Shown here: piece by piece, positions 5,375-17,326 of the stretch
How the letters are laid out: each line of letters begins with the position of its first letter
How positions within the stretch are numbered: the stretch's first letter is position 1
Origin: Guyparkeria hydrothermalis
GTDB taxonomy: Bacteria; Pseudomonadota; Gammaproteobacteria; Halothiobacillales; Halothiobacillaceae
Length of the DNA: 64,000 nucleotides
Assembly (NCBI RefSeq): GCF_023555385.1
Contig: NZ_JAJSED010000001.1
Coordinates: 186,001 to 250,000, forward strand
Direction: 5' to 3'
Program-made: the position numbers and the translations under genes
The notes under the pieces: generated by a model
The model's input: the letters and a program-made list of their open reading frames with translations, nothing else
Told to the model about the DNA's origin: nothing
The model's database searches: none

Positions 5375-6214
5375 TTACGAGAAGAACGCGCTGACTGCCG
5401 AGTCGAGGGTGTCGCGCATGTCTGGGTCGTCGGTGATCGGACGGACCAGGGTCATGGAGCAGGCGGCGCGCGGGTCGATGCCCTTCGAGATCAGGTTGCC
5501 CGCGTAGACCAGCAGACGGGTGGAGACGCCCTCGTCGAGGCCGTGGCCCTTGAGGTTGCGCGCGCGCTGGGCGATCTCGACCAGCTTGCCGGCCGTGTCG
5601 CGGTCGACGCCCGTCTCGTGGACGAGGATCTCGGTCTCGGTATCCGGGTCCGGATAGTCGAAGTCGAGTGCGCCGAAACGCTGCTTGGTCGACTGCTTCA
5701 GATCTTTCATCAGGTTCTGGTAGCCCGGGTTGTAGGAGATGACGATCTGGAAGTCGGGGTGTGCCTCGACCAGTTCGCCCTTCTTCTCCAGCGGCAGAAC
5801 GCGACGGTGGTCGGTCAGCGGGTGGATGACGACCGTGGTGTCCTGGCGCGCCTCGACCACTTCATCGAGGTAGCAGATCGCGCCCATGCGGGCGGCGGTG
5901 GTCAGCGGGCCGTCCTGCCAGCGCGTACCGTCCTTGTCGAGCAGGTAGCGGCCGACGAGATCCGAGGCGGTCATGTCCTCGTTACAGGCCACGCTGATCA
6001 GCGGACGCTGCAGCTTCCAGGCCATGTACTCGATGAAGCGGGTCTTGCCCGAGCCGGTGGGGCCCTTGAGCATCATCGGCATGCGGGCCTTGTAGGCGGC
6101 CTCGTAGAGGTCGACCTCGTCGTGGACCGGGCGGTAGTAGGGCTCGGTCTGGATGCGGTACTGGTCCGCATCCGCACTGTTGGTCCCTTGCTGGGGGCTC
6201 TGATCAAACAACAT
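5375..6214 (-). CDS. cbbQ: Rubisco activase AAA+ subunit CbbQ
   Basis: The 279-aa product is a MoxR-type AAA+ ATPase that forms hexamers with CbbO and uses ATP to remove inhibitory sugar phosphates from form I Rubisco. Walker A is GPTGSGKT (residues 51-58) and Walker B is ICYLDEV with D117-E118; a long beta-hairpin insert ([16 protein letters not shown]) follows, and the C-terminal domain ends SAVSAFFS. Length matches CbbQ family members. It is the last gene of the locus, 78 bp after the PII-like gene, and is separated from its partner cbbO by the dab genes. Its 3' end is duplicated at 3825-3989. Confidence 0.95.
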
Positions 6215-6292: not shown

Positions 6293-6619
6293 TCAGCCCT
6301 TGAACTTAACCAGACGGCTGACCTGGATGTCGGAGACGAAGACCACGCCGCTGTGTTTGTCGAAGAACGGGGCGAAACCTTCGAGCAGCGGCTCGACCAG
6401 TTCTTCGGGGACGGCGGCGATGATCATGATCAGCACCTCGTCCTCGTTGAACATCAGGTGGCCTTCGTGGAAGCCCTGGCTGCCCTTGCCGGACAGGTTA
6501 CCCACGATGGTGTAACCCTTGACGTCGGCACGGTCGAGGAGGTCGGTGGCGAATTCCTGGTGCTCGCCCTCGATGATGATCTCGAGCTTCTTCAGCGGGT
6601 TGAGTTTGAGATTGCTCAT
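6293..6619 (-). CDS. Carboxysome-associated PII-like protein (CPII type)
   Basis: The 108-aa product resembles PII-like signalling proteins found in carboxysome/DAB loci; a characterised member from Thiomonas binds adenine nucleotides and bicarbonate. Visible are the beta-alpha-beta start (KKLEIIIEGEHQEFATDLLDRADVKGYTIV), a T-loop-like segment GNLSGKGSQGFHEG and the second half with VLIMIIAAVPEE. The uridylylated tyrosine context of GlnB is absent, so a nitrogen role is unlikely. It starts with an ATGA overlap on the dabA stop (6616-6619), which implies translational coupling. Inference: it senses energy or bicarbonate state and adjusts DabAB. Confidence 0.88.
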   Translation of the reverse strand: MSNLKLNPLKKLEIIIEGEHQEFATDLLDRADVKGYTIVGNLSGKGSQGFHEGHLMFNEDEVLIMIIAAVPEELVEPLLEGFAPFFDKHSGVVFVSDIQVSRLVKFKG

Positions 6620-9600
6620 GCAGGGCTCTCCTCTGCGTCGTTGGATTCCAGTTGCTTGGCGCGCTGGGGCGCCGGCCCCAGATCGATCCAGTCACCGCGG
6701 TCGAAGTAATGCAGATGGCCGGATTCGGGGTCGGCGACCACCACGTTGACCCAGCCGTTGACGATCAGGCTCAGCGCCTTGGGCACGCGCCCGGCGGCGG
6801 CGAGCACGTGCGGTACCGGCGCCTCGACGATCACCAGCAAGCGCAGCGGCTCGTGGTAGGGGCGACCGTCCTTGAGCACCGTCTGCGAGGGCAGCCCGGT
6901 GCGGATGTCGGACAGGTTGCCGCTCATCACGCCGAAGCGCCCGGCGACGTTGTGATAGGCCTTGGAACCGCTGCCGAAGCCTTCGTTGTCGACGGCGGAG
7001 AAGTAGTGCTCGAGGTTGATCCACTCGCCGATGATCAACGGACCGGAGAGGATGGTATCGAGCAGGCGGCCCTTGGGGTCGAGCTTGTAGTCGTACGACA
7101 GCAGGAAGCTGCGGCCGTCGAGGTCCATGTCCTCGGTCAGATGGCGGCCACCGACGACCACCGCCGCGTTGCGCGCCAGACCCCACTCGGGGCGTACCTG
7201 GGTCCAGTCGCTGGTGTTGCGCTGGATGTGACGGAACGCGGTGGTGGTGTCGAGGTCCGGGTCGACGTTCTCCTCCAGCGTCGGCAGGCGCTCGGCGGCA
7301 CAGAGTCGGCTCGCGGCACGCAGGCCGTTGCGCAGTCGTTCCATGTAGACCAGGTGGCTGGTCGGCAGGAGATCCAGATCGTGCAGGGCGATCTCGTCCG
7401 AGGTGGTGTTGTGCTGCGCCGGGACGAACCAGGTGTCATCCGGGATGTGGATGTCCTGTTCGGCGAGGCGGCGGCGCACCTCGGACTTGTTCGCCATCTG
7501 CGCGAGCACGCGCGCCGAGACCAGCCCGTGGCCGCCGCCGCAGGCACCGCAGTCGAGTGCGGACTCGTAGGGGTTGTTGTCCGACTGGCTGGCGTGACCG
7601 GCGAGGATGACGAAGCGCGAGAAGTTCTCGTTCATCCCCATCATCCGCAGCGCCTGGCCGACGAAATAGACCTGCTCGTCGGTGGAGAAGCCGATCTTGC
7701 CCAGCCGCTCCATCTGCATGGAGACGAACGACGGGTTGATGCGGTACTCGTCGCGCAGCGTCTCGATGAACTCGGCCTCGGCCGCCGGGCTCAGGGCGAA
7801 CTGGCGGGCGAACTCGGAGGTGCCCTCCTTGTTGCCCATCGCGATCTCGCGCAGCTCGCGGATCATCGAGTCGGTGATCGCGTCTCGGTCGATGCCGAGC
7901 TGCTGGCCGATGGCCTGCACGATCGTCACCCGCTGCAGCGAGCGGACGATCGAGTCGGCCTGCTCGCGCGAGAGCTTGTCGATCAGCAGACGGGTCGAGG
8001 CGCCCTTGGGCTCGATGCGGTTGCGCCAGCGGTCGTAGACGCGCGGCGCGACGGTCTTGCCGATCATGTCGAAGCCGAACAGCAGGCCGATCGCCTCGAC
8101 GGTGAAGTACGGCGAGAGCACCGAGCTCTTCACGTCGTGCAGCACGTGGCTGGCCGAGGAGTAGAAGTCGGTCTCGATCTGCGTCGCGCCGGTGGGGACT
8201 TCCAGCACCACGTTCTTGGGTGTGATCTGCACCGGACAGAGATCCAGCTCGGTGCCCTTGCCCAGGCCGATGAAGCTGACCGGCACGCCGAAGAAGCCGG
8301 CAATGCCGAAGGTCTGGTAGTCGCCGACGTGCTCGAGCTGGCGACGGATGCGCTCGGAGCGCACGTCGATGCAGAACAGCGCCTGGGCGAACGGACGCTT
8401 TTCGCGCTTGGCCGGCGGCAGCAGCTTGATCTCGTTGAGGACCGATTTGCGGTAGACCGCCTCCATGGCGCGCAGCCACATCATGCCCTCGCCATCCTCG
8501 AACTCGTCGAGCAGGGCGAGCAGGGTGTCGATCTGGTCGGCATCCAGCGCCTTGAGCGCCTCGGTCTGCCCGGCGGCCTCGGCCAGCGACAGCAGGCGGT
8601 CGGCCTGCCGGCGTGCCTCGGCGATCCGCTCGTCGTGCAGGTACTCGGGCAGCAGGCGGTTGATGTGGCCAGGGTGCTTGTGCGCCAGGGCGTCGTCGAC
8701 ACGATGGGCCCACTCCGGCCGGACGGTGCCGCCGTGGTAGGCCTGGCGCAGGTAGCACTCGGCGGTGTGCTGCTCGAGATAGGCCGCCAGATCCGGGTAG
8801 GTGGCGGGCAGGCGCTTGCGACGGGCGTGCTCGCGGATCAGCGCCAGCCCCAGCACCAGCCGGATGGCCAGGAAGTCGATCAGGTCGGCCGGGTAGGTCT
8901 GCGACCAGTGGTAGCGACTGGCCGACGAGCGCCAGCGGATGAAGCCGGCCCAGCCGTGCAGGCGGGTCAGCTCGCGGGTGATCAGGCCGTCCCAGTGGGA
9001 CTCCTCGATGCCCAGTTCCCCGAGGACGTAGGCGATAACGCCCTCGGCGGAGGTGTCCTGCGCGAGGATCTTCTTGATGTGCAGGCCGCGCAGGAACAGG
9101 CGGAGGTTGCGCTTGGCCAGCGCGCTCCATGCAGTGAAGAAACCATGCTCCCGGCCCGGCATCTGCAGGGTCGACTGGCCTTCGTCGAAGAAGTCCAGGC
9201 AGCTCTTGATCACCAGCTCGTCGAGCGTGGTGCCGATCTCGGTGCCGAACAGCAGGTCGATGGACTCGTAAAGCGGCCGCTCGGGCGGGAACTGTGCCGC
9301 GAGGCGTTCCTGGAGCGCGTCGATGTCGGCGGTCGTCTCGCCGCAGGGCGTCGCCTCGCCGTCGATCGCGCACTTGATGTCTTCGGCATCCGCTAGGTCG
9401 AGCCGCTCGCCGACGGTCTCCGGCGTATTGCACAGCAGCGTCTGCAGCATGCCGTGGAGATCGAGGTCGCCGATGGCCTCGCGCTCGGCCAGGAAGCGCT
9501 GGATGTCGTCACCGAGGGTGGCGTCGTCGACCTTGCCCTCGGCGTGATAACGCTGGTAGTCCTTGCGCGGCAGGAACGCCCGGCCGTGGAATAGCCGCTC

Positions 9601-9759
9601 GCCCTGGCGCACGCCTTCCTCGAACGGCATGTGCTCGAGACCATGCAGCGGATTGTGGTGGATGAAGGTCCGCATCGGCCAGAAGAACGGGATCGGTTCG
9701 GCGGCCATGTGAACCATGGAACGGATTTTTAGGCGGTGGCCCAGCGTCAGTCGGCTCAT
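6616..9759 (-). CDS. dabA: DabA, catalytic subunit of the DAB inorganic-carbon transporter
   Basis: The 1047-aa product is a DUF2309 protein. DabA is a cytoplasmic, membrane-bound, zinc-dependent, beta-carbonic-anhydrase-like protein that with DabB converts CO2 to bicarbonate using ion-gradient energy. The expected zinc and catalytic residues are present: C463 and D465 in FCIDVRSE, H722 in LAGHASQS and C737 in DCGACGGG. The H-to-C spacing of 15 equals that of the characterised Halothiobacillus protein (H524/C539). It is longer than that protein, mainly in the N-terminal half. It follows the small membrane gene by 4 bp and overlaps the PII-like gene. Confidence 0.95.
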   Translation of the reverse strand: MSRLTLGHRLKIRSMVHMAAEPIPFFWPMRTFIHHNPLHGLEHMPFEEGVRQGERLFHGRAFLPRKDYQRYHAEGKVDDATLGDDIQRFLAEREAIGDLDLHGMLQTLLCNTPETVGERLDLADAEDIKCAIDGEATPCGETTADIDALQERLAAQFPPERPLYESIDLLFGTEIGTTLDELVIKSCLDFFDEGQSTLQMPGREHGFFTAWSALAKRNLRLFLRGLHIKKILAQDTSAEGVIAYVLGELGIEESHWDGLITRELTRLHGWAGFIRWRSSASRYHWSQTYPADLIDFLAIRLVLGLALIREHARRKRLPATYPDLAAYLEQHTAECYLRQAYHGGTVRPEWAHRVDDALAHKHPGHINRLLPEYLHDERIAEARRQADRLLSLAEAAGQTEALKALDADQIDTLLALLDEFEDGEGMMWLRAMEAVYRKSVLNEIKLLPPAKREKRPFAQALFCIDVRSERIRRQLEHVGDYQTFGIAGFFGVPVSFIGLGKGTELDLCPVQITPKNVVLEVPTGATQIETDFYSSASHVLHDVKSSVLSPYFTVEAIGLLFGFDMIGKTVAPRVYDRWRNRIEPKGASTRLLIDKLSREQADSIVRSLQRVTIVQAIGQQLGIDRDAITDSMIRELREIAMGNKEGTSEFARQFALSPAAEAEFIETLRDEYRINPSFVSMQMERLGKIGFSTDEQVYFVGQALRMMGMNENFSRFVILAGHASQSDNNPYESALDCGACGGGHGLVSARVLAQMANKSEVRRRLAEQDIHIPDDTWFVPAQHNTTSDEIALHDLDLLPTSHLVYMERLRNGLRAASRLCAAERLPTLEENVDPDLDTTTAFRHIQRNTSDWTQVRPEWGLARNAAVVVGGRHLTEDMDLDGRSFLLSYDYKLDPKGRLLDTILSGPLIIGEWINLEHYFSAVDNEGFGSGSKAYHNVAGRFGVMSGNLSDIRTGLPSQTVLKDGRPYHEPLRLLVIVEAPVPHVLAAAGRVPKALSLIVNGWVNVVVADPESGHLHYFDRGDWIDLGPAPQRAKQLESNDAEESPA

Positions 9760-9763
9760 GGCG

Positions 9764-10510
9764 TCAGACTCCTGTCCAGATCAGGTTCAACACGACCGCG
9801 GCGACGATCACGCCGGCGAAGGCCCATGCCTGGGCGACGGGCAGGTCGGCGATGTTCTTGTCGTTACGCGGACCGAACACCGTGTCCCGCAGCAGCCGGG
9901 TACCGGCCCAGCTCCACAAGAGCCAGGTCAGCAGCGCCACGATCACGGGCGCCGGGTCGCTGCCGAACAGCATGGTGAGCATGACGAAGAAGCCGGGGGA
10001 GATCGGCAGCGCCATCGCGGCCAGCAACACCACCGTGATCAGGCCAGCCAGCCGCGGGATGTCGCGCGCCATGCCGGTGACCAAGCCGGAGTAGGCGGCA
10101 CCCAGGCGACGTTCAAGCAGCATGGCGACCACGACCAGCAGGGCCGGGGCCACGGCGAAGCCGATCACGGAGGCGTGCAGGTCAACCACCCACGCGCCGT
10201 TGGCGGCCATCACCCAGGTCAGCGCGAAGGCCGAGGTGGCCAGCATGGCCGCCCACTGGCCCAGCTCGCGCACCGTCAGCAGTCGCCAGGCGTAGAAGAC
10301 TGCGGTAATCAGGCCCCACCAGAGGAAGACGCTCCCGCTCAGCGGCACGCCGGCGGCCAGCACCAGCAGCACGCCGATCTGCGGCCAGACGAGGATGAGC
10401 GCCACGCGGATGACGGGGTGGCTGAACCGTCCGAGCAGCCAGTTGAAGGCCATGCTCAGGGGGAACAGGGGCAGGAAGAAGCCTGCCAGCAACAGCAACA
10501 GCGTGTTCAT
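9764..10510 (-). CDS. Integral membrane protein encoded between dabB and dabA
   Basis: The 248-aa product is strongly hydrophobic with about seven or eight predicted membrane segments (LLLLLAGFFLPLFPLSM, VALILVWPQIGVLLVLAAG and a last one AFAGVIVAAVVLNLIWTGV). It could be a distant relative of NuoM/MrpD-type antiporter subunits, but no diagnostic motif was identified. It begins 1 bp after the dabB stop and ends 4 bp before the dabA ATG, so it is almost certainly translated with them. Inference: a third membrane subunit or assembly factor of this DAB complex. Its function is unknown. Confidence 0.8.
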   Translation of the reverse strand: MNTLLLLLAGFFLPLFPLSMAFNWLLGRFSHPVIRVALILVWPQIGVLLVLAAGVPLSGSVFLWWGLITAVFYAWRLLTVRELGQWAAMLATSAFALTWVMAANGAWVVDLHASVIGFAVAPALLVVVAMLLERRLGAAYSGLVTGMARDIPRLAGLITVVLLAAMALPISPGFFVMLTMLFGSDPAPVIVALLTWLLWSWAGTRLLRDTVFGPRNDKNIADLPVAQAWAFAGVIVAAVVLNLIWTGV

Positions 10511-10511
10511 A

Positions 10512-12194
10512 TCAGCGCCACCTCATCCAGACATTGATGCGCTTGGAGCCCTCGAGCAGGGCCTGGCTCAGACGCTCGTACAGGTCGGCGATGTACAGCT
10601 CGCGCGAGATCAGGGAGTAGAGCGTCAGTCGCAGTTCGGTGAAGCGGTTGCCGAACAGCGATTCCTCGCGGCTGGCGAGATAGCTGCCGATCCAGCCGAC
10701 CAGCACGATCAGCCCCAGCAGGATCACTAGGCCGTCGAAGGTGACCGCATCGAGGCCCGCGGCGTGATAGAGCGCCTCGCGGAAGGCCGCATCCGGGTAC
10801 AGGAAGGTCTCGAAGGTGTGACCGATGATGCTGTAGCCGATCACGATCAGGGCGAACGACAGCAGGATCATCAGCATCATGCGCACCGGGTTGGTCGCAT
10901 CCAGGCGGTGGGTGGCGAACAGCACCTGCACGCCGGTGATCCAGCCGAAGAACAGCAGCACGATCGCGCCCTGTTTCTGGAAGAAGTCCGGCGAGACCGC
11001 CCAGTGCGCCAGCAGCAGGATCACCAGCGGCACGATCAAGGTGACCAGCCCGATGGCCAGCCACGGTAGGCGCGTCGGCTTGCCGGTCTTGCGGTCGACC
11101 AGGAAGGTGTACAGCGGGTTCTGCGGTACGTCGTCGTGACGACGCGCATCGCCGATCAGGTCACCCGAGCTGAGGAACATGGTCGCCTTGAACATGCCGT
11201 GGGCGATCAGGTGGAACACGGCCAGCGAGAAAGCCCCTACGCCGCACTCCATGATCATGAAGCCCATCTGGCCCATGGTGGAGTAGCCGAGTGACTTCTT
11301 GATGTCGTTCTGGGTGAGCATCAGCACCGAGCCGATCACCGCGGTGAGCAGGCCGACCACGAACAGCAGGTGCAGCACGCCGTCGGCGTTGACGAACGCC
11401 GGAGCGAAGCGGTTGATGATGATGCCGCCGGCGTTGACGATGCCCGCGTGCATCAGTGCCGAGACCGGCGTCGGGCCGTCCATGGTGTAGGGCAGCCAGG
11501 TGTGCAGCGGGAACTGGGCGGACTTGGCGAAGGCCGAGACGGCGATCAGCCCGGCCGCCGTGATCGCCGCCGGCATGCCGAGTACCTCAGTGTGGGGGTC
11601 GGCCATCAGGCGATCAAAGAGCGTCGGGAAGTCCAGTGCCCCATAGGCCTGGAACAGCAGCACGGCCGCCAGGACCAGCGGCAGGTCGCCGATGCGGTAG
11701 GTGAGGAAGGTCCAGAAGGCGTAGCGCTCGCCCGGCCGCGATTCGGTGTTCTGGCCGAGCAGGAAGTACATCATCACGCTGACGAGGTGCCAGGCGATCA
11801 GCAGCGTGATCAGGTCGCCTGCCGTGACGAACAGCAGGATCGACGCCGTCATCAGGTCGAGCAGCATGAAGAAGCGCGCGTAGCCCGGCTCTTCAGCCAT
11901 GTAGCGCACGGAGTAGATGTGCACGATCAGGCTGAAGCCCGCGACCACCAGCGCCATGATCGCGCTGAGCGGGTCGAGGTAGACACTGCCCCAGCTCGCG
12001 CCGATGCCCAACCAGCTCGGGCCCTGGTCGCTCGCGATATAGACCACGATCTGCCAGAGGGCAACGAGGAAGGTGACGACCCCCATGCCCACGCTCAACT
12101 GGGCGACCCGCTTGCCGATCCGGCCGGCCAGCAAATGCACCAGCAGGGCGGATATCACCGGCAATAACGGGATCAGCCATTGCAGTTTGACCAT
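10512..12194 (-). CDS. dabB: DabB, cation-conducting membrane subunit of the DAB transporter
   Basis: The 560-aa product is a NuoL/Nqo12-related proton-conducting membrane protein of about 14-15 helices. Visible are the conserved NADH-quinone-oxidoreductase segments LIAWHLVSVMMYFLLG, FAKSAQFPLHTWLPYTMDGPTPVSAL (family signature) and LGYSTMGQMGFMIMECG. In DAB systems DabB couples ion flow to CO2 hydration by DabA. Its place at the head of the dabB-membrane-dabA-PII-cbbQ string supports this over a complex I gene, since no other nuo genes are near. An AAGGA/GGAG site precedes the ATG. Confidence 0.93.
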   Translation of the reverse strand: MVKLQWLIPLLPVISALLVHLLAGRIGKRVAQLSVGMGVVTFLVALWQIVVYIASDQGPSWLGIGASWGSVYLDPLSAIMALVVAGFSLIVHIYSVRYMAEEPGYARFFMLLDLMTASILLFVTAGDLITLLIAWHLVSVMMYFLLGQNTESRPGERYAFWTFLTYRIGDLPLVLAAVLLFQAYGALDFPTLFDRLMADPHTEVLGMPAAITAAGLIAVSAFAKSAQFPLHTWLPYTMDGPTPVSALMHAGIVNAGGIIINRFAPAFVNADGVLHLLFVVGLLTAVIGSVLMLTQNDIKKSLGYSTMGQMGFMIMECGVGAFSLAVFHLIAHGMFKATMFLSSGDLIGDARRHDDVPQNPLYTFLVDRKTGKPTRLPWLAIGLVTLIVPLVILLLAHWAVSPDFFQKQGAIVLLFFGWITGVQVLFATHRLDATNPVRMMLMILLSFALIVIGYSIIGHTFETFLYPDAAFREALYHAAGLDAVTFDGLVILLGLIVLVGWIGSYLASREESLFGNRFTELRLTLYSLISRELYIADLYERLSQALLEGSKRINVWMRWR

Positions 12195-12346: not shown

Positions 12347-14698
12347 TCAGCGCGTCATCGACAGATACAGCGCCGGGAGCTTCTCCGGCAACCGTGAGAC
12401 GTGGTCGAGGACCATGTAGTTCTTCGGACCGAACACGCGCGAGACGTACTGGTCCGCATTCGGGTCGAGCGTGACGCAGAACGTCTCGATGCCCTGGCGG
12501 TGGAGCTCCTCGACCGCCTTCTTGGTGTCGTGGCGCAGGTACTGCGGATCGCGCACGTCGTTGTCCGAGGGCTCGCCGTCGGTCAGCAGCAGTACCAGCT
12601 TGCGCTGACTGGGCCGGCGGTATAGCTGCGAGCCGGCGTGGCGCAGTGCCGCACCCATGCGGGTCGACAGCTGGCCGGTCATGCCGGCGAGGCGCGCCTT
12701 GGCCTTGTCCGTGTACGGTTCGCCGAAGTCCTTGAAGCGGTAGTACTCGACATCGTGCCGGCCGTTGGAATCGAAGCCGTGGATGGCGAACGGGTCGCCG
12801 ACGCGATGGATGGCGTCGGCGAGCAGGGCAGCGGCCTCCCTCGAGAGGTCGAGCACCGTGGTCTCCTCGTCGCCGCGGCCGATGATGTCGTTGGTCGACT
12901 CGGACAGGTCGATCAGCAGCATTACTGACAGGTCGCGGACCTGCAGCCGGGTGCGGATGTTGATGCGCGGGTCCGGCGTCTCGCCCATGCGGATGTCGAT
13001 CATCGCGTTGACCGCCGCGTTGAGGTCGATCTGGTCGCCGTCCTCGACCTTCTTCTCGCGGACCACGCCCTGCGGCTGGATGCCCTCGATCAAGTACTTG
13101 AGGCGGCGCACCAGCGGCTTGTGCCGATCGAGAATCGCGTCGATTTCCTCCGGATCGCCGTCCTGGGGCCGCTTCTCGTTGATCGTGGTCCACAGCGGAC
13201 GCTCGAGCTGGGTCATGTAGTCCCATTCGGGGTAGTGCACCGGCGAGAGCGTGCGGTCCTCGGCGAAGATGTCCGAGTACTTGCGGCCGTGGTTGTCGTA
13301 GAGCTCGGTGCCCAGCACCCAGACCTCGTCGGCGTCTTCGGCCGAGATGTATTCGACGTCGAGCTCGTTGAGCATTTCCATCAGCGAGACGTAGCGACGC
13401 TTGTCGTCGGTGCTGCCCTCGCGCTGGATTTCCATCGCCGATTCCGGCTTCTCGAACAGAAAGCGGTTGTCGTCGCGGTAGGGGATGCTCGGCACGTCCT
13501 GGCTGGGGCTGAAGCTCAGGCCCAGTGCCTCGGCGCGCTCCGCGAGTGCCAGGCCGGCGGTGCGGACGCGCTCGTAGTTCTCGAGGTCTTCCTGAATCGT
13601 CATCAGGGCCTCGCGGGCCTCGACGACCAGCGGATGGTTATCGACGTAGTCGGGATCGAGCAGGGCCAGCGCGATACGGTCGAGCAGCGGGCCGACCCGG
13701 TCGGGGTCGGTCTCCTCGTGGCGGTTCACCGCGATCCGGCTGATGCGCGCCCACAGCGGCTCGAGACCGGGGAAGTCCTGGCCGGCGAGGATTTCGACGC
13801 GCGCGTCTTCCATCAGGCCGATGAAGCTCTGCTGGAGCTTGGAGGCATCTTCCGACTCGGCGTCGAAACCCGAGTAGATCATGTGCGCCGCGGCGTGGGC
13901 GGCCGAGGCACGGTAGAGATTGACGCCGTCCACGGAGGAATCGTCGCGGTCGACGTAGTCGTCGAAGGCATCGGGCAGGTTGATGAACGGGCCCTCGATG
14001 AACGGCCGGTAGCCCTCGCGGCTTTCGAAGTCACCGGAGGTGGGACGCAGCAGGAAGTTGCGCGCCCATAATGCCCGCAGGTACATCACCAGGCGGCGCT
14101 GCACGTCGACGAACAGGGTGCCGCGGCGCTCTTTCTGCAACACGGCCTCGGCTTCGGGGCTGGAGAGGCTGAAGTAGGCCTCCAGTGCGTCGAAGTCGTT
14201 GCGGTGTGCATTGATGCCCCAGGTGGCCCAGCGGCGCAGGCCGCCGAGGGTCAGCACCTCGAGCAGGTGGTCGAGTTGACCGAGCATGGGGCGCAGGGCA
14301 CGGGGCGCCTGCGCCAGGATGTAGTTGACCAACGAGATGTACTGGTGGAACAGCGAGGCCTCACCCAGTCGGTTCGCGGCCACCGGGGCGGTCGAGAACA
14401 ACAGGACGAGGACCGCGCCACTGGTCTTGGAGAACATCTTGATCGCCATCGAGAGCAGCTCGAAGGCGGTATCGGTCCCCAATTCCCTTGCCACCTGCGG
14501 TGTGGCCTCGATGTAGGCGAGCACCAGCTCCTCGCCACGGCCGAGCGATTGCAGGCTGATCGCGCCCTCGAGATAGGCGTCCAGCGCGCGCGGCGAGAAC
14601 ACCCGGGTGGCGTCCACCCAGTTGATCTCGAGGATCTCACGCGCCTTTTCACCCAGCTCGTCCAGGCGTTCCTGGTCTTCTAGCCGTGCACTGCTCAT
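12347..14698 (-). CDS. cbbO: Rubisco activase adaptor CbbO (von Willebrand A domain)
   Basis: The 783-aa product is the CbbO adaptor that binds CbbQ and Rubisco. The C-terminal VWA domain has a MIDAS motif D597-L-S-E-S601 in VMLLIDLSESTND and LLLTDGEPSDND further on. The N-terminal half is alpha-helical, as in NorD/CbbO proteins. The start at 14698 (MSSARLEDQERL) is chosen because upstream in-frame residues look non-conserved, but no strong ribosome site is visible, so the start is uncertain. It lies 72 bp after mcdB. Its partner cbbQ is 6 kb further on, across the dab genes. Confidence 0.92.
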   Translation of the reverse strand: MSSARLEDQERLDELGEKAREILEINWVDATRVFSPRALDAYLEGAISLQSLGRGEELVLAYIEATPQVARELGTDTAFELLSMAIKMFSKTSGAVLVLLFSTAPVAANRLGEASLFHQYISLVNYILAQAPRALRPMLGQLDHLLEVLTLGGLRRWATWGINAHRNDFDALEAYFSLSSPEAEAVLQKERRGTLFVDVQRRLVMYLRALWARNFLLRPTSGDFESREGYRPFIEGPFINLPDAFDDYVDRDDSSVDGVNLYRASAAHAAAHMIYSGFDAESEDASKLQQSFIGLMEDARVEILAGQDFPGLEPLWARISRIAVNRHEETDPDRVGPLLDRIALALLDPDYVDNHPLVVEAREALMTIQEDLENYERVRTAGLALAERAEALGLSFSPSQDVPSIPYRDDNRFLFEKPESAMEIQREGSTDDKRRYVSLMEMLNELDVEYISAEDADEVWVLGTELYDNHGRKYSDIFAEDRTLSPVHYPEWDYMTQLERPLWTTINEKRPQDGDPEEIDAILDRHKPLVRRLKYLIEGIQPQGVVREKKVEDGDQIDLNAAVNAMIDIRMGETPDPRINIRTRLQVRDLSVMLLIDLSESTNDIIGRGDEETTVLDLSREAAALLADAIHRVGDPFAIHGFDSNGRHDVEYYRFKDFGEPYTDKAKARLAGMTGQLSTRMGAALRHAGSQLYRRPSQRKLVLLLTDGEPSDNDVRDPQYLRHDTKKAVEELHRQGIETFCVTLDPNADQYVSRVFGPKNYMVLDHVSRLPEKLPALYLSMTR

Positions 14699-14770
14699 CG
14701 GGTTGGTCGCTGTTCTGCGGGTGACATGGGAAGCGGAAAGGGCCGGTGGGGGACCGGCCCGGGGAGACAC

Positions 14771-16493: not shown

Positions 16494-16823
16494 TCAGCCG
16501 ATAGACGGGACGCACCAGGAGGATTCGCTTTGGGACGGATCCTCCGGCAGGATCGACTCGACCTCACCGTGCACGCGGGCAATGATGTGCGCCGCGACCA
16601 GGCCGTCACCGACTCGCTCGCAGGCATCGGCGCCAGCGCGGACTGCCGCGTTGACGGCGCCGGTCTCGCCACGGACCAGCACGGTCACGTAGCCGCCGCC
16701 GACGAAGGAGCGGCCGATCAGGCTCACTTCGGAGGCCTTGGTCATGGCGTCGGCGGCCTCGATGGCCGGCACGAGGCCGCGGGTCTCGATCATACCCAGT
16801 GCGATACCAGTGGTGGAAGCCAT
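16494..16823 (-). CDS. csoS1B: Carboxysome shell hexamer protein CsoS1B
   Basis: The 109-aa product is a single-BMC-domain shell protein: [24 protein letters not shown], then the pore-facing region and [22 protein letters not shown]. Compared with CsoS1A/C it has a C-terminal extension of about 12 residues (DPSQSESSWCVPSIG), which distinguishes CsoS1B. Hexamers tile the shell facets. The start at 16823 (MASTTGIALG) fits the family; an upstream in-frame ATG would add 15 unrelated residues. A 137-bp gap with a hairpin separates it from csoS1A. Confidence 0.95.
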   Translation of the reverse strand: MASTTGIALGMIETRGLVPAIEAADAMTKASEVSLIGRSFVGGGYVTVLVRGETGAVNAAVRAGADACERVGDGLVAAHIIARVHGEVESILPEDPSQSESSWCVPSIG

Positions 16824-16901
16824 GTCGTGCACCCTCAGGTCAGTCAATCCAACAAGAGCCGTCAGCACTTACGTCTAAACGGCTCCTGAAAAAGAATAGG
16901 G

Positions 16902-16947
16902 CAGCAGGCAGACCGTGCCCGTGGACACGGTCAGACAGTCCTGCTTG
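16902..16947 (-). other. Hairpin between csoS1A and csoS1B
   Basis: A 7-bp perfect inner stem (GACCGTG at 16911-16917 with CACGGTC at 16926-16932) can be extended by an outer AGCAGG/CCTGCT pair. No T tract follows on the minus strand. It may protect or process the polycistronic mRNA and so set the csoS1A:csoS1B ratio. Confidence 0.5.
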
Positions 16948-16960
16948 CAAGTGCCCGGAA

Positions 16961-17257
16961 TTAAGCTTCCGGGGCTTTCGGCAGAATGTTCTCTACCTCG
17001 GAGTGGACACGCGCGATGATGTGCGCAGCCACCAGGCCGTCGCCTACGCGCTCACAGGCGTCAGCGCCAGCGCGAACAGCAGCGTTAACAGCGCCGGTCT
17101 CACCACGGACCAGAACGGTCACGTAGCCACCGCCGACGAACTGACGACCAACCAGGCGAACCTCGGCGGCCTTGGTCATGGCGTCAGCCGCTTCGATTGC
17201 CGGCACGAGGCCGCGCGTTTCAATCATTCCCAGTGCGATACCGGATACATCAGCCAT
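16961..17257 (-). CDS. csoS1A: Carboxysome shell hexamer protein CsoS1A
   Basis: The 98-aa product is a single-BMC-domain shell protein that forms flat hexamers with a charged central pore, the main facet component. Its protein sequence is identical to CsoS1C encoded just upstream, with only synonymous base differences. The ATG at 17257 has a GGGAG site 8 bp upstream; the longer in-frame start (MGVTQ) would cover that site. Gene order C-A-B matches Halothiobacillus. Confidence 0.96.
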
Positions 17258-17326
17258 TTGAGTTACTCCCAAGCTGTAGTTGAATCGGCCGGCGACGTCA
17301 GGTCGCCGACGCTACGTGAATCCGCC

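Follow-up and report, generated by a model that had tools for sequence, protein, structure and literature searches.

The dab operon and the distribution of its third gene

The window, by which we mean the whole 64,000-nucleotide stretch of DNA that was analysed, carries a dab operon in which three genes follow each other on the minus strand in the order dabB, small membrane protein, dabA. Specifically, dabB1 (10512..12194, minus strand), encoding a NuoL-type protein of 560 aa with PF00361 and PF00662, is followed after 1 nt by the gene of a putative third DAB1 subunit (9764..10510, minus strand), which starts with ATG and encodes 248 aa. Another 4 nt separate this gene from the start of dabA1 (6616..9759, minus strand), whose product is a long DabA of 1047 aa (PF10070, E 3e-247) in which the zinc ligands C, D, H and C are kept. 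This order on one strand, with such tight spacing, is that of a three-subunit DAB1. The ORF coordinates confirm the first-pass annotation's description of a 248-aa membrane protein wedged between dabB and dabA with gaps of 1 bp and 4 bp. Its count of seven to eight helices also holds: there are about eight, judging from the family hydropathy and from an AF2 monomer model of poor quality, based on three input sequences (pLDDT 44, pTM 0.27), which shows nine helical elements.

Additionally, a gene for a PII-like protein of 108 aa (6293..6619, minus strand), which we assume may be a carboxysome-associated CPII, overlaps the end of dabA by 4 nt. Beyond it lies a gene for a CbbQ-type ATPase (5375-6214); the region upstream of dabB codes for a large VWA protein (12347-14770). 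Near the operon, at 16494-17272, two tandem ORFs (124 and 103 aa) have almost identical sequences, which we take to be BMC shell-protein-like. Within dabA1, the segment for the membrane “finger” with Glu555, the counterpart of DabA2 Glu444, spans 8035..8160 (minus strand; limits approximate and hand-counted; motif from PMC13144422). Just after the finger, 7711..7947 (minus strand) encodes an insert of about 79 residues (residues ~605-683).

The first-pass annotation called the small membrane protein uncharacterised, which is contradicted by the literature. H. neapolitanus DAB1 is already described as a three-subunit complex including hneap_0908, a “small hypothetical transmembrane protein”, in a 2026 paper (Nat Commun, PMC13144422), and the gene is therefore not uncharted. 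It had been noted in 2015 as a “putative transmembrane hypothetical protein” (Sci Rep, PMC4633670) and in 2020 as an “unnamed interstitial gene (mrpA family)” co-expressed with dabAB1 (eLife, PMC7714395). According to the available part of the latter paper, H. neapolitanus DAB1 including the interstitial gene complements carbonic-anhydrase-free E. coli; that part contains no report of the interstitial gene being left out of the construct. The literature searched, seen in part, holds no statement on the protein's descent closer than “mrpA family”, nor a demonstration that the third gene is needed in DAB1 constructs that carry it. What appears to be new, within the literature searched, is the kinship with the C-terminal half of NuoM, the missing proton-path residues, the one-to-one linkage to a DabA clade and the private features of DabA and DabB.

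The third ORF is a real, conserved gene, because it has relatives in two other Guyparkeria (90% protein identity), occurs in 13 of 27 genomes of an order-level sample (E<=0.001) and is under purifying selection, with dN/dS against three relatives of 0.19, 0.20 and 0.33. It diverges faster than its neighbours: identity to the L077 locus is 62% for the third protein versus 73% for DabA and 76% for DabB. This would fit a hitch-hiking or decaying gene retained through its operon position, yet purifying selection, the absence of any loss over 36 loci and 16 invariant columns over the 44 sequences of the family make that reading highly improbable.

In the class as a whole, the third protein is found in 36 of 369 genomes (E<=1e-15) and DabA in 83 of 369. 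The third gene lies directly upstream of dabA on the same strand in 36/36 cases, always in the order dabB, third gene, dabA, and 15 of the 36 third-bearing genomes have an additional DabA match without a third gene. Neither a phylum sample of 398 genomes, in which only the window's own genome was hit, nor a scan of viral_contigs yielded further homologues. The adjacency table excludes 12 very short PF10070 fragment rows, and among regions around dabA that lack the third gene and lie outside long-DabA loci, 20 of the 45 listed were taken. The sequence comparisons below use 35 of 36 third-bearing DabAs (L106 is cut by a contig end), 17 of 19 other long DabAs and 19 of 20 loci for short DabA and DabB2 (L128 omitted).

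In a DabA tree of 72 rows, a quick tree with long-branch warnings between large groups, a single branch (SH-aLRT 100) separates all third-bearing DabAs from the rest, which implies one change, and no loss of the third gene occurs within the clade among 35 full-length cases. The survey of co-occurrence that the first-pass annotation had proposed therefore finds the third gene one-to-one with one clade of long DabA. The same clade has two other traits. A PII-like gene follows dabA in 35/36 third-bearing loci (the 36th is cut by the contig end), and in none of 39 other dab loci (0/19 other long, 0/20 short). The DabA1 insert is present in 35/35 clade members, in 0/19 short DabAs and in at most 1/17 other long DabAs; four other DabA1 inserts are common to multi-antiporter DabAs. 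Taken together, the third gene is genuine, conserved and obligately linked to this DabA clade, and its product is probably an obligate component of DAB1.

These three clade-private traits could make up one module, in which the third protein is a regulatory subunit, namely the membrane partner that the PII-like protein would use to gate DAB1, possibly together with the DabA1 insert. However, the third gene, the PII-like gene and the insert each arose once, and on one and the same branch; co-inheritance is therefore unable to separate them, and the PII-like protein might equally act on DabA1 or DabB1. Moreover, the dab and third genes without the rest of the operon, and hence without PII, complement carbonic-anhydrase-free E. 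coli (PMC7714395). We consider a regulatory subunit rather unlikely.

Kinship with NuoM and the proton-path residues

The first-pass annotation had rightly named NuoM as a family to test, and the profile search finds a match to the C-terminal half of NuoM. With the third-family alignment (44 of 45 rows; L076, which repeats the window, omitted), the hhalign score of the third profile is 45.5 against NuoM and 49.5 and 51.5 against NuoM-type subunits from other dab loci, with probabilities of 74-88%, not near 100. The scores against NuoN (26.3), NuoL (26.5), DabB1 (22.3) and DabB2 (19.7) are lower. In the controls, the highest scores of 20 block-shuffled alignments are 34.0, 26.4 and 25.0, while no reversed alignment exceeds 16.8. 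Because the NuoM scores exceed these controls, residues 60-248 of the third protein are related to residues 287-481 of E. coli NuoM, with which they align and share loop motifs. An origin from DabB, NuoL or NuoN was considered and rejected, as those profile scores lie within the range of the shuffled versions against NuoM-type profiles.

Searches of model and structure collections give the same picture. Among NCBIfam models, the third protein of the window on its own matches NuoM only (E 3e-6, residues 119-241 on 335-464 of 486), and the two leading NCBIfam NuoM models are matched by 21/44 and 20/44 family members (E<=0.01). The 44-member profile has three matches at E<=1 among all PDB chains, all of them complex I antiporter-like subunits: the best is NuoM 8e9g_M (E 1.2e-6, third residues 48-243 on 286-492), followed by an ND5 (E 0.012) and NuoM of 4he8 (E 0.032). 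In line with these matches, the third protein is, over its C-terminal three quarters, a relative of the C-terminal half of NuoM, and it is closer to NuoM than to NuoL, NuoN or DabB. Formal PF00361 membership was rejected, with only 1 of 44 members matching and no Pfam match at E<=0.01 for the protein of the window. For residues 1-60, a local profile search gave no significant match; in a forced global alignment, a PLFP motif in this segment coincides with the PxFP motif of NuoM TM7, and order, length and this motif are suggestive of TM7/8.

The protein differs markedly from complete NuoM of complex I. It scores 26.1 bits against a curated TIGR01972 cut-off of 263.8, and with 248 aa and about eight helices it falls short of the full 14-helix core, lacking some six N-terminal helices. 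In addition, NuoM residues K234, K265, H322, H348 and E407, conserved and charged in 31/31 NuoM sequences, are not kept: in the profile alignments, all five sites are taken by gaps or by residues that are not titratable in the third family. No conserved charge was found within the helix core of the 44-member family, with helices taken from the poor AF2 model. Judged by these same helices, the charged columns that are well conserved (R28, R35, R76, R81, E82, R135, R153, R205 and D222) sit in loops or at helix ends, and a membrane-embedded Lys/His/Glu proton path is not seen. Since the membrane-embedded Lys, His and Glu residues of NuoM have no counterpart, the third protein is probably channel-dead.

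The remaining pump parts appear complete. DabB1 retains each of the seven DabB2 proton-path residues that were tested in 36/36 sequences and can therefore plausibly conduct alone. The DabA sites scored were C351, D353, H524, C539 and E444 of DabA2, the first four of which we take to be the zinc ligands. C539 is described as an active-site residue, and Asp353 and Glu444 are named in PMC13144422. Both the zinc ligands and the finger Glu are kept in 35/35 DabA1 sequences, as expected of a three-subunit DAB1, and because the finger Glu is kept, the DAB2-type half-channel seems intact in DAB1. With the known pump parts apparently intact on their own, the role of the third protein would seem to be structural or regulatory.

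The first-pass annotation's idea of an added ion-channel half thus stands as ancestry, in the match to the C-terminal half of NuoM, and fails as function, since the conducting residues are absent. An active conducting half, completing a second channel or a periplasmic half-channel with titratable residues of its own, would draw on descent from the NuoM half that forms the periplasmic half-channel in antiporters. It would also fit the replacement of a NuoL-like C-half bundle by the DabA finger in DAB2 (PMC13144422), and a little room for it remains in the invariant R76, which lies close to the end of a helix. Against these points stand the lack of conserved helix-core charge, the loss of the five NuoM residues and the universal finger Glu of DabA1, and we regard such a half as very unlikely.

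Proposed position and role of the third protein in DAB1

Within complex I, NuoM meets the N-terminal half of NuoL with its own C-terminal half, and DabB1 is NuoL-type. NuoL has the pairs Glu144/Arg175 and Asp178/Lys229 near the subunit interface (PMC13144422). At the Glu144 site, which is placed from E. coli NuoL alone because the NuoL rows of the loci end before it, multi-antiporter DabB has Glu in 10/10 sequences. DAB1 DabB (n=36) has His in 25, Tyr in 6, Phe in 2 and Asn in 2, with one further sequence, and DAB2 DabB (n=19) has Ile in 8, Leu in 3, Phe in 2 and Val in 2, with four further sequences; with three clades, this pattern amounts effectively to three data points. In the window, the site is His136 of DabB1 (codon 11787..11789, minus strand; position hand-computed from the alignment), equivalent to DabB2 Ile151. 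The Lys229 site is Arg in 32/36 DAB1 DabB sequences. The residues at these two sites are compatible with a neighbour at that face of DabB1. On the other hand, 12 of the 24 conserved positions private to DabB1 lie in residues 335-421, near TM11-13 and not on the NuoM-like face, the others including positions near TM5-8, and the DabB1 residues therefore do not fix the docking site.

Taken together, we propose, with a probability of roughly 0.6, that DAB1 contains the third protein as a constant structural subunit which does not conduct, derives from NuoM, packs beside DabB1 and supports the coupling of DabB1 to DabA1. It would be what remains of a NuoM-type antiporter subunit, namely a C-terminal portion from about TM7/8 to TM14 that has lost the proton-path residues. 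The third protein would most likely pack against DabB1 as the C-terminal half of NuoM does beside NuoL in complex I and would support the DabB1–DabA1 coupling region, so that protons passing through DabB1 and the DabA1 finger would drive CO2 hydration on DabA1 in this vectorial carbonic anhydrase. Physical contact, contact site and structural role are what we infer here; the first-pass suggestion of an added antiporter-related DAB component is upheld, as a putative subunit, by the NuoM kinship and the dab linkage.

A helper that leaves the finished complex, namely an assembly or insertion factor for DabB1 and DabA1, is decidedly unlikely. DAB2 is highly unstable and dissociated during preparation (PMC13144422), which makes stabilising helpers plausible, and the tight spacing to dabB and dabA suggests translational coupling; however, two-gene DABs assemble without a third protein, and kinship to an integral complex I subunit suggests a subunit. 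We also think it unlikely that the third protein caps DabB1 on its antiporter-facing side and thereby enables the DabA1 insert and a PII-like sensor to turn the proton-driven hydration of CO2 on and off. If this were true, a CO2 pump would have retained a dead respiratory-antiporter half for its control, a His/Tyr-based interlock would have taken the place of the Glu-based one of complex I, and DAB1 and DAB2 would be the PII-gated and ungated forms of the same enzyme.

If the third protein is instead the obligate NuoM-derived structural subunit that we propose, DAB1 constructs with only two genes should work poorly or not at all, the difference between DAB1 and DAB2 would be one of design and not of size, and the family would offer a simple case of antiporter-like subunits being lost, cut down and kept as scaffold. 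CO2-concentrating mechanisms are being engineered in E. coli with DAB pumps, whose use in plants is under discussion.

Comparison with other dab systems

In multi-antiporter dab loci, a full-length NuoM-type gene (486-524 aa) lies directly upstream of dabA, in the position of the third gene, and further antiporter genes follow; unlike DAB1, these loci lack PII, and their DabB retains the Glu at the NuoL Glu144 site. A NuoM cut down at the position upstream of dabA would be the simplest history. COGNAT (2017; PMC5700660) assigns dabA loci with PII to clade B and those with an extra NuoM to clade C, and the multi-antiporter loci are probably its clade C. The long DabAs of L056 and L060-L071 have several antiporter-type genes as neighbours, up to four. 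At the DabA2 Leu658 site, 17/17 of the other long DabAs carry His, and they do not keep the finger Glu444; the chemistry or coupling of multi-antiporter DabA may therefore differ from that of DAB1 and DAB2. In two loci (L058:9842-12979 and L059:2012-5149), a DabB-like protein of 1045 aa with 22-23 hydrophobic segments adjoins a long dabA and looks like a naturally fused pair of antiporter-type subunits.

DAB2/DAC systems (DabA2–DabB2; Tcr_0853/0854; MpsAB) have the zinc ligands, the finger Glu and the DabB proton-path residues in common with DAB1, but consist of two subunits only, without third protein, PII or DabA insert. As DAB2 works without a third subunit (PMC13144422), this type of pump is not generally dependent on one. 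The genome of the window itself has a second, short two-gene system of DAB2 type (L120, G000:C1:288216-290519), about 38 kb past the window end. In genome G012, the third protein is 59% identical to that of the window, and DAB2 proteins of 551 and 827 aa have lengths that fit the published H. neapolitanus DAB2. With H. neapolitanus DAB1 (hneap_0907/0908/0909), finally, the operon of the window shares the gene order and the three subunits, with no difference of substance.
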